In this document: positions 1,497 through 9,393 of the stretch, one piece after another
How the letters are laid out: each line of letters opens with the position of its first letter
Position numbering within the stretch: the stretch's first letter is position 1
Assembly: GCA_021846505.1 (NCBI GenBank)
Contig: JAJZWV010000041.1
Coordinates: 1-33,453 of the forward strand
Direction: 5' to 3'
DNA from: Bacillota bacterium
GTDB lineage: Bacteria; Bacillota; Sulfobacillia; Sulfobacillales; JAIMBI01
DNA length: 33,453 nucleotides
Translations under genes and position numbers: made by a program
The notes under the pieces: generated by a model
Database searches by the model: none
What the model saw: the letters and a program-made list of their open reading frames with translations, nothing else
What the model was told of the DNA's origin: nothing

Positions 1497-2237
1497 CTAG
1501 ACGCTGTCGCCCACGGGGCTCCACAGCGGCAGCACCTGAGCCGGCGATGCCCGCGCCGCTCGCTGCGGCGCGGGCAGGTGCCGGCGCCGCCCAATCACGT
1601 GACAGGTGTGCTCGGCAAACCAGTTCTGACTCATGACAAACCAGCCGTGGTGCCCGCGATCCGTGCGCCAGCTGTTTTCCACTTTCCAGCGGCTGGGCCA
1701 GCCTTCCACTAAGTTGACCCCGTGATGCGCATGGCGTGGGTGGGCCGGCTTTCCCCGGACAGCAGGCGGTTCGCCTTGCTCATGGCCAGCGGCACCCCCA
1801 GCGCGGCCTCGCAGTCGTACAGGGCCGTGTCCATTACCCCGGACTCGCAGACAAGCCACTGCCTCGCTGTCCACCGGCTCTTCGGCCGTGGCCAGCACGT
1901 TGCTCAAGAAGTAGTTGGCTTTCTCGAGTTTGTCCCAGAACATCTGGTGCGCCTGCGAGAACTCAAACGCCTTCAGCGCGTCCAGCAAGTTGAAGCCCGC
2001 AAGCGCCCAGCACCGGCCGCTCTGTTTCTGGTTGGTGATGAGACCGGTCGCCCGCTCCAGGGAAAACGTGTGCCGGGTCTTGGCGGCCACGGCTTGGTCC
2101 ATCGCCACCGCGCGAATGCCACTGGCCCGCACCGCGTTCATGACTGACCGGTGCTCGCGCTCCCACCGAAACGCGTCGGCCTGCGACGCGGCCCGCTCGG
2201 GAGATAGGGTTAGGGACTGTTCCGGGCGCACGCCCAT
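1497..2237 (-). pseudogene. Degenerate duplicate of aminopeptidase C (pepC-like)
   Basis: This is a broken paralogue of the intact pepC immediately upstream on the same strand. It keeps a good ribosome binding site (AGGAGG before ATG 2237) and the N-terminal block with the catalytic cysteine (QKQSGRCWALAG). It also keeps the C-terminal block around the catalytic asparagine (RWKVENSW) and the ending LWSPVGDSV. Compared with the intact copy, about 200 residues (roughly 133-334) are missing at a junction near 1848. After the junction the homologous frame changes: GVMDTALYD and PTHAMRITG (the histidine block) read in a different frame from the start, and the frame returns near GVNLVEG. The open frame of the track-length ORF therefore reads through two compensating shifts. 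It is very unlikely to be an active peptidase. Confidence 0.82.
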
Positions 2238-2357
2238 GCGAAATCCTCCTTGCCGGTCTTCGAGGCCCTGACGCGGCCCAAGATGCACTAGTGGATCTGC
2301 GCCGCGTGCTGACGCCCGATCCCGCTGGGATCGCCATATGTTGCCGGAGTCCTTCGA

Positions 2358-2388
2358 GCGTGGGGGTGCGGTGGCCGCACCCCCACGC
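2358..2388 (-). terminator. Perfect 14-bp hairpin after pepC
   Basis: The arms 2358-2371 and 2375-2388 are perfect reverse complements with a TGG loop and are mostly G/C. The hairpin begins about 40 nt past the pepC stop codon, in the 191-bp gap before the decayed pepC copy. There is no clear U-tract on either side. It could be a terminator or an mRNA-stabilising 3' hairpin. Confidence 0.6.
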
Positions 2389-2428
2389 GGAAAGGTCCCG
2401 TGAACGACCCGGTGCAGGAGCAGCCGCG

Positions 2429-3781
2429 CTACGCCAAGGAGCCCATAGGGTCCCACGGCTTCAGCACGATTGGCTCCGCCTTTAAGGCATCCTGCAGCGG
2501 GGTGGAAAGATACTTCCGCTGCACCACCACCTGGTACATGTGCTCATCGAACCAGCTGTCGCTCATCACAAAGAAGCCTTTTTGGCCGGGCTCCGTGCCC
2601 CAGCTGTTTTCCACCTTCCAGCGGTTGGGGCGGCCGTCGACGATGTTTACGCCGGTAAACACCATGGCATGGGTCATTTGGCTCTCGCCATAGTCCAGGC
2701 GCTCGGCCTTGGTCAGGTGGAACGGCACGCCGAGCGCGGTCTCGTAGTCATAGAGCCGGGTGTCCATCACGCCCGACGTCCGATCCGAGTCCTTCCCGAC
2801 GTCGCAGCCGAACCAAACCACCTCGCCATCCTGGAGCTGGGCCAGTGCCACTTGCCGGAGCGTCTCGCTCTCCACGTTCAGGTACAGCACGTCCCGGCCC
2901 CCTTTGACATTGCCCAGGTACTGGACGGTGTAGGTGCGGCCGTAGGGCTTGTCGGCCGTCGGCGCGTTGATCAGGCTGACGTAGTCATCCAAGTTGACGC
3001 CGACGTGCTTTTGGAAAAACGCCTGGGGAGTAAGGCCCCGGTCCGCGTGAAACACGTTGTCCTTGTCGCGGTACTCGAAGTCGAACTGCTGGGGCGGCTC
3101 GCCCAAGAAGTGCACCAAGAGCCGATAAATCTCGGCCAGCATCTCCTCCTTGTGGCTCCGCAGCACGTCGAGCGAACGTTCGCCGTCCTGATGCCGGCGG
3201 CGCAGCGCCGCGGCATCTTCCCGCAGCTTGGCGGTGATGAGGCTGTTCATGCCGCGCGACTGGCTGGAGTGGAACGTCTCGGGCATCACGGTCTTGGGCA
3301 CGACGCCGTACTTCTCCACCAGGTTGACGAACATCTCCCACTGGCCGCCGTCGTTGACTGGCGCCTGCAGCAGCCAGGCAATGACCCGGCCATCGGTGGG
3401 CTCCTGCAGCGTGTCCAAGATGTTCTCCAGGAAGTAATTGGCCTTCTCAAACTTGTCCCAGAACATTTGGTATGTCTGCGACAGCTCGAACTCCTTCAGG
3501 TTGTGGGTTTTGCACACCGCCACCTTCATCGTGTTCAGCCCAGCAAACAGCCAGCAGCGGCCGCTGGCTTTCTGGCTGGTGATGGGGTCCGATGGCAGGT
3601 CAATCGAAAACGTGTAGGGGGTGGTGGTCGCCACCGCCTGATCCATCGCCACCGCCTGAATGCCGTTCTTCTTCACGGCATTCATCAGGGCTTTGTGCTC
3701 TCGCGCTTCGGAAAATTCCTGGGCCAGTTTCTTCACCAAATCCGGCGAGATCGCGGCCGAATAATCGAGGCGTATACTCAT
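2429..3781 (-). CDS. pepC: Aminopeptidase C / bleomycin hydrolase family (peptidase C1B)
   Basis: The 450-residue product has the normal length for PepC/bleomycin hydrolase, a cytoplasmic, usually hexameric thiol aminopeptidase that trims peptides from the N-terminus. The papain-type catalytic set is visible: Gln70 (oxyanion hole) and Cys76 in SQKASGRCWLFAG, His371 in MTHAMVFTG, and Asn392 in WKVENSWG. The protein ends in KPWDPMGSLA, the conserved C-terminal tail that in this family sits in the active-site cleft and sets exopeptidase specificity. ATG 3781 has only a G-rich stretch upstream as a possible ribosome binding site, but it fits family N-termini. A decayed tandem copy follows downstream at 1497-2237. 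Together these indicate a past duplication in which only this copy stayed functional. Confidence 0.95.
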   Translation of the reverse strand: MSIRLDYSAAISPDLVKKLAQEFSEAREHKALMNAVKKNGIQAVAMDQAVATTTPYTFSIDLPSDPITSQKASGRCWLFAGLNTMKVAVCKTHNLKEFELSQTYQMFWDKFEKANYFLENILDTLQEPTDGRVIAWLLQAPVNDGGQWEMFVNLVEKYGVVPKTVMPETFHSSQSRGMNSLITAKLREDAAALRRRHQDGERSLDVLRSHKEEMLAEIYRLLVHFLGEPPQQFDFEYRDKDNVFHADRGLTPQAFFQKHVGVNLDDYVSLINAPTADKPYGRTYTVQYLGNVKGGRDVLYLNVESETLRQVALAQLQDGEVVWFGCDVGKDSDRTSGVMDTRLYDYETALGVPFHLTKAERLDYGESQMTHAMVFTGVNIVDGRPNRWKVENSWGTEPGQKGFFVMSDSWFDEHMYQVVVQRKYLSTPLQDALKAEPIVLKPWDPMGSLA

Positions 3782-8500: not shown

Positions 8501-8567
8501 CATCCTGGGCATCCTGGCGGCACGTATAGATGGTCTGAGCAAACAGAATCGCAAGGAGGCAGGCAGC

Positions 8568-8804
8568 ATGAAGATTCAGGTGCGCTACTGCACGGCGTGA
8601 GGGTATCTCGAGCATGCCACCCGGGTGGTGGCGGAAGTTTTAGGGGCCAAGGCTTCCCTGGTGTCGTCCGCCGAGGTGATTCCCGGAAAGGACGGGGTCT
8701 TTTTGGTGTCCGCCGGCGGCAACATCATTTTCTCCAAGGAGCAGGAGCAGCGCTTTCCGCACCCGGGCGAGGTGGTCAAGCGGCTCGAGGCCCTCGGGTC
8801 CTGA
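8568..8804 (+). CDS. SelW/SelT-like (Rdx family) selenoprotein, UGA = Sec11
   Basis: ATG 8568 is preceded by AAGGAGG at 8 nt spacing. It opens a 79-codon frame containing one internal TGA (8598-8600, codon 11) and ending at TGA 8802-8804. With UGA read as selenocysteine, the N-terminus is MKIQVRYCTAUGYLEHA: a beta strand followed by Cys8-x-x-Sec11. This is the thioredoxin-like redox motif of SelW/SelT/SelH-type Rdx proteins (CxxU or CxxC), with the UGA exactly at the family's Sec/Cys position. After the UGA the same frame continues with conserved Rdx features: GKDGVFLVSAGGNIIFSKEQ, then RFPHPGEVVKRLEALG, the usual 'G-x-F-x-V-x-x-x-G-x-x-I-F-S-K' and 'R-F-P-x-P-x-E' blocks. A SECIS-like hairpin follows the UGA. 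The role is probably a small cytoplasmic thiol/selenol oxidoreductase. The CPBP protease gene starts 4 nt after the stop, suggesting co-translation. The alternative, a nonsense mutant of a Cys form, is less likely given the downstream frame conservation. Confidence 0.88.
8601..8634 (+). promoter_or_regulatory. Putative bacterial SECIS element
   Basis: Immediately after the UGA codon the mRNA can fold GCCACC (8616-8621) with GGTGGC (8627-8632) around a five-base loop CGGGU. The loop begins 21 nt after the UGA, within the 16-37 nt range reported for bacterial SECIS elements, and has G as its second base, meeting the rule that one of the first two loop bases is G. SelB would bind this structure to deliver Sec-tRNA. 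The structure lies inside the coding region, as is normal in bacteria. Confidence 0.7.
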
Positions 8805-8808
8805 CCGC

Positions 8809-9393
8809 ATGACGCTGGCACCAGGTCCAGCGGCGGCCGCCGGCTTAGGCGCCGGCAGTGTGCTATTCCTGACCACCTGGGGCGTCCTGGCGGCCGCGGG
8901 CGCCGTGGCTCCGGCGGAGCCCACACGGGGTTCCCGCCGCTTTTGGCTGACGGTGCTGGCGCTGCTGGCGCTCTCCGCCGTCGAAGAAGTGGTGTTTCGG
9001 GGAGCCGTTTTAGGATGGGGCCAGCGCCTTCTCGGCACGCCCGCGGCGCTGGCGCTCTCCTCCGTCGGGTTTGCCGCCAGCCACGCCTTTCCCACTCGCC
9101 TGACCATCACCACGTGGATCAACCTCACCCTCTATGGGGTGCTGTTTGGGCTCGCCTATCTGGCGGGCGGGCTGCCCGCGTCCATCGCGCTTCATGGCAG
9201 CTGGAATGCCTGGGAGTGGGGCAGCGGCTTTGCCGTCAGCGGCCCCACCACCACCCGCATGCTGCCCGCTCCCCCGGCACGCCGCCTGATGCCACGGGTG
9301 CCCTACGGGCCGGAGGGCCACTGGGCCGCTACCGTGTGCTGCCTGGCCGCCACGGCGGCGATGCTGGCGGCCGCGCCCCCGCTCGGCCGGTAA
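8809..9393 (+). CDS. CPBP family intramembrane metalloprotease (Abi/CAAX-like)
   Basis: This 194-residue membrane protein carries the CPBP (PF02517-type) motifs: AVEEVVFRGAVLG (Glu59-Glu60 and Arg64, motif 1), SHAFPT (His92, motif 2) and SIALHGSWNAWEWG (His129 and Asn133, motif 3). These residues form the intramembrane zinc site in Rce1-like proteases. Bacterial relatives act in bacteriocin self-immunity, protein processing or unknown roles. Hydrophobic segments occupy most of the chain. The start is 4 nt past the selenoprotein stop, so translation is probably coupled and the two genes form an operon. The functional link between the two is not known. A convergent glycosyltransferase gene ends 19 bp downstream. 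Confidence 0.88.
   Translation: MTLAPGPAAAAGLGAGSVLFLTTWGVLAAAGAVAPAEPTRGSRRFWLTVLALLALSAVEEVVFRGAVLGWGQRLLGTPAALALSSVGFAASHAFPTRLTITTWINLTLYGVLFGLAYLAGGLPASIALHGSWNAWEWGSGFAVSGPTTTRMLPAPPARRLMPRVPYGPEGHWAATVCCLAATAAMLAAAPPLGR

Follow-up and report, generated by a model that had tools for sequence, protein, structure and literature searches.

An in-frame UGA predicted to encode selenocysteine in a SelW-like (Rdx) gene of an uncultured Bacillota bacterium

In a window of 33,453 nucleotides (the whole stretch of DNA that was analysed, from a Bacillota bacterium of the order Sulfobacillales) we identified a reading frame interrupted by a TGA codon, together with the following features. The basis of each is given in brackets.

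8553 to 8559, forward strand: Shine-Dalgarno sequence AAGGAGG, 8 nt upstream of the ATG at 8568 (sequence)
8568 to 8804, forward strand: predicted SelW-like (Rdx) selenoprotein gene, 78 aa (Pfam Rdx, TIGR02174, homologues, predicted fold)
8598 to 8600, forward strand: in-frame TGA at codon 11, predicted selenocysteine (conservation in the class set; Sec machinery of the genome)
8615 to 8633, forward strand: predicted bacterial SECIS hairpin (folding, covariation)
8809 to 9393, forward strand: gene for a CPBP/Rce1-like membrane protease, starting 4 nt past the Rdx gene (Pfam PF02517)

The frame runs from the ATG at 8568 to the stop codon TGA at 8802-8804, which is separated by 4 nt from the next ATG (8809). 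Codon 11 has the context C-T-A-TGA-G-Y-L, and residues 8-11 (C8-T-A-U11) make up the CxxU motif. The initial annotation had described a strong ribosome binding site opening the frame, a TGA at codon 11 within Cys-Thr-Ala-UGA and a second TGA followed after 4 nt by the next gene, and each of these elements was found in the sequence as described. In the three genomes of the same genus AAGGAGG is similarly placed.

A short-chain dehydrogenase gene lies upstream, and the Rdx gene is possibly in one operon with the CPBP/Rce1-like gene downstream. The latter was also found directly behind the Rdx gene in two same-genus contigs (L063, L065) and approximately 2 kb behind it in two contigs from another genus of the same family (L077, L079); the remaining relatives have a different neighbourhood. 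As the two genes are adjacent only within the genus and are separated by about 2 kb in L077 and L079, we do not claim a general functional link. It seems rather unlikely that the SelW-like selenoprotein and the CPBP/Rce1-like membrane protein form a two-gene redox unit in this bacterial family, but if they did, bacterial SelW would have a genetically linked partner. A scan for promoters and terminators gave nothing useful. Elsewhere in the window a shorter, apparently degraded copy of a Peptidase C1-like gene (bleomycin hydrolase type; 1497-2456, reverse strand) adjoins an intact one at 2429-3781 (reverse strand).

With the TGA taken as a residue, the product matched the Pfam family Rdx (PF10262) with 55.2 bits (E 8e-15; cut-off 22.6 bits) over residues 2-74, and the homology extends across the UGA. 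The model TIGR02174 (CXXU_selWTH) gave 46.2 bits, also above its cut-off of 34.2, and the search of the 78-residue translation against Rdx/SelW profiles that had been proposed earlier was therefore positive for both curated cut-offs. The score against NF041051 (SelTWH_Campy, an equivalog) was 70.9 bits and below the cut-off of 88; the product is related to this Campylobacter equivalog but was not filed under it. By sequence, the solved relatives were SelW-related proteins, with an E value of 7.7e-10 for 2fa8. An AlphaFold2 model built from four sequences (pLDDT 84) has a first strand at residues 2-8 and a helix at residues 14-26, with the CxxU pair following the first strand. The best PDB matches of the model were all SelW-family proteins, with TM scores up to 0.91, and included 2fa8 (0.89-0.90), 3dex, 2p0g, 2ojl and 2obk; mouse SelW (2npb) gave a TM score of 0.71. 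The product combines a full-length profile match above the cut-off, the CxxU motif and a predicted SelW-type thioredoxin-like fold, by which we assign it to the SelW-like family. The original label 'SelW/SelT-like' agrees with these best matches in its Rdx/SelW part, and the term 'SelT' is loose.

To follow the UGA in relatives, a class set of 61 genomes and a phylum set of 398 Bacillota genomes were used. The Rdx gene was present in 20 of the 61 class genomes and all 20 genes had a single TGA, located at the CxxU codon; the frame is thus shared, with its TGA in the equivalent place, by 19 other genomes and is not a product of chance. The phylum set contained 31 Rdx matches, 28 of which had one in-frame TGA, and this codon was at the CxxU position in every match read. 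The three matches without TGA comprised one Cys form (L092), one gene with CGA (L105) and one partial match in which the codon is not covered. The look for Cys homologues suggested by the initial annotation accordingly yielded none among the 20 Rdx genes of the 61 class genomes and one in the phylum set, and TGA at the CxxU codon is kept across genera and families. The annotation had also considered that homologues in close relatives might end at codon 11; this was not observed, and the relatives keep the frame past this codon. Within the genus, dN for codons 12-75 was 0.07-0.27 and dS 0.37-1.64 (dN/dS about 0.11-0.24), and the variable sites were mostly at third positions (21/12/44 by codon position). 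The low dN relative to dS indicates that the codons behind the UGA are translated and that selection acts on the resulting protein.

Among the class genomes selA was present in 18 of the 20 with the Rdx gene and in 29 of the 41 without it, a weak trend with no clear tracking that was kept out of the evidence. Two of these genomes, G004 (L036) and G028 (L035), have a UGA-containing Rdx gene and no selA match at a completeness of 96-97%, perhaps due to assembly gaps.

Additionally, five Bacillota loci (L104, L106, L107, L108 and L109, from genomes G220, G269, G071, G245 and G157) encode a longer protein with an N-terminal Rdx domain, in which the motif is CVEU with an in-frame TGA, and a C-terminal DUF2703 domain (PF10865, E 6.8e-38, for L107 only). 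This protein looks like an Rdx-DUF2703 selenoprotein fusion, and L103 is possibly similar. No report was found in a literature search for selenoprotein W together with DUF2703. A gene of the same fusion type in G207 (L105, 1645-1683, reverse strand) has CGA (CVER) where its relatives have TGA, and retains a strong SECIS-like hairpin (-8.0 kcal/mol) despite the CGA; it may represent either a recent loss of Sec or a sequencing error.

The bacterial SECIS element has been described as a stem with a small loop holding a G, directly downstream of the UGA (PMC1088965). In the window, a core stem of five pairs (8617-8621/8627-8631), extended to 8615-8633, encloses the 5-nt loop CGGGU (8622-8626), which has G at its second position and starts 21 nt past the UGA. 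This hairpin by itself is unexceptional in GC-rich sequence (z -1.4; codon-shuffle fraction 0.04), and the region of the terminal UGA folds too, so that hairpin energy alone cannot separate Sec from stop codons. The case for a SECIS therefore rests on comparison, and covariation was used in place of the unimpressive folding of the single sequence. In the 20 class sequences 96% of the stem cells were paired, with 5 double-change cells (0/500 shuffles). Across 42 distinct Bacillota sequences 95.2% of the cells were paired, 36 double-change cells were counted compared to a shuffled mean of 8.9, and the covariation score was 0.486 compared to at most 0.180 in slid controls. The stem occurs as CCACC/GGTGG, CCGCC/GGCGG, CGGCC/GGCCG, CCGCG/CGCGG, CTGCT/AGCAG and CTGTC/GACAG, and the second position of the loop stays G while the stem varies. 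In the Cys homologue L092 there was no comparable hairpin. We consider this covarying hairpin as strong comparative evidence for the predicted Sec insertion by the bacterial mechanism (PMC1088965).

The source genome (3.58 Mb in 119 contigs, 96% complete) was searched for the Sec machinery, as the initial annotation had proposed, and selA, selB, selC and selD were all present. SelA (507.8 bits), SelB (319.7 bits) and SelD (354 bits) scored above the curated cut-offs, and the tRNA-Sec (67.8 bits) above the Rfam gathering score, with the anticodon TCA according to ARAGORN. SelA and SelB have no internal TGA. The selD gene itself has an in-frame TGA within SGUGCKLGP, which we take to be the classical Sec position, and the genome is thus predicted to recode UGA in no fewer than two genes. 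The gene studied here hence has the conserved UGA aligned with the Cys/Sec of the family, the SECIS downstream of it and the complete set of sel genes that are expected of a bacterial selenoprotein.

As TGA differs from TGC and TGT by one base, the frame could in principle be a Cys-type Rdx gene whose TGA is an artefact of sequencing, or one that a nonsense mutation has recently turned into a pseudogene. However, the same TGA is found in all 20 class genes and in nearly the whole phylum set, and purifying selection downstream of the UGA, the covarying SECIS and the Sec machinery also speak against this, so that its probability is negligible; both the pseudogene and the sequencing-error readings were rejected on conservation. 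Readthrough at UGA is known in many bacteria, and the codon might be read as Trp or another residue by near-cognate readthrough or by a genome-wide reassignment. Yet UGA terminates the Rdx gene itself (8802) as well as its same-genus homologues, SelA and SelB lack internal TGA codons, codon 11 aligns with the redox Cys/Sec, and the hairpin occurs along with the complete Sec machinery, which makes such a reading very improbable.

The conserved hairpin right after the UGA would also suit a gene that yields only a 10-residue peptide, with the downstream frame mattering only as RNA structure. This is scarcely credible, as conservation of the Rdx protein sequence extends through the entire frame, well past the hairpin, and the variation in codons 12-75 is mostly third-position. 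We consider it very probable that 8568-8804 is a functional gene for a SelW-like (Rdx) selenoprotein with Sec inserted at the UGA, and codon 11 is, judged from the sequence comparisons, almost certainly read as selenocysteine; the presence of the sel genes, the conserved frame and the covarying SECIS support the original selenoprotein reading. Ribosomes would start at the ATG at 8568, SelB with Sec-tRNA(Sec) would bind the hairpin at 8615-8633 downstream of codon 11, and selenocysteine would be put in at this codon in place of termination. The predicted product is a 78-residue thioredoxin-like protein with a Cys-x-x-Sec redox pair after the first strand; the most likely role of this pair would be thiol/selenol-disulfide exchange, with either a protein or a small thiol as partner.

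Bacterial SelW-like selenoproteins have been described since 2005, with 48 genes and the CXXU motif (PMC1088965), and Firmicutes are among the bacteria with published members (PMC1088965, PMC1794560). A survey from 2006 reported them in Alkaliphilus, Desulfotomaculum and Symbiobacterium and noted how scarce Cys homologues are among bacteria that use Sec (PMC1794560); in the GOS survey they ranked with the most abundant selenoproteins (PMC2398784). One report describes a formate dehydrogenase with Sec from Sulfobacillus (PMC4378227). The expectation that gene finders would call no gene or a truncated one holds in part: some SelW genes reportedly escaped annotation altogether in older genomes (PMC4607533), but NCBI models exist under the name 'SelT/SelW/SelH family (seleno)protein'. 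The gene is genuine and adds a member to a selenoprotein family that is already well known, and SelW-like selenoproteins are confirmed in this group of uncultured Bacillota. The phylum-wide picture of SECIS covariation helps to annotate genes that standard gene prediction truncates at the UGA, and the conserved CPBP/Rce1-like neighbour is a modest lead on the role of bacterial SelW.

The gene resembles the bacterial SelW-like selenoproteins (PF10262; TIGR02174) in size, CxxU motif, thioredoxin-like fold, a SECIS directly after the UGA and the scarcity of Cys forms among bacteria that use Sec. Nothing is different in kind; it differs in lineage (Bacillota MAGs) and in the CPBP/Rce1-like neighbour gene of the close relatives. 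The bacterial Rdx structures 2fa8, 3dex, 2p0g, 2ojl and 2obk, presumably Cys-type proteins, share its fold (TM 0.8-0.9) and sequence family, whereas in the window gene the second position of the CxxC/U pair is occupied by UGA. Mammalian SelW (2npb) and MIEN1/C17orf37 (2ljk, TM 0.67) are alike in fold and type of redox motif; eukaryotic SECIS elements are located in the 3' UTR, whereas the predicted SECIS of the window gene lies inside the coding region.
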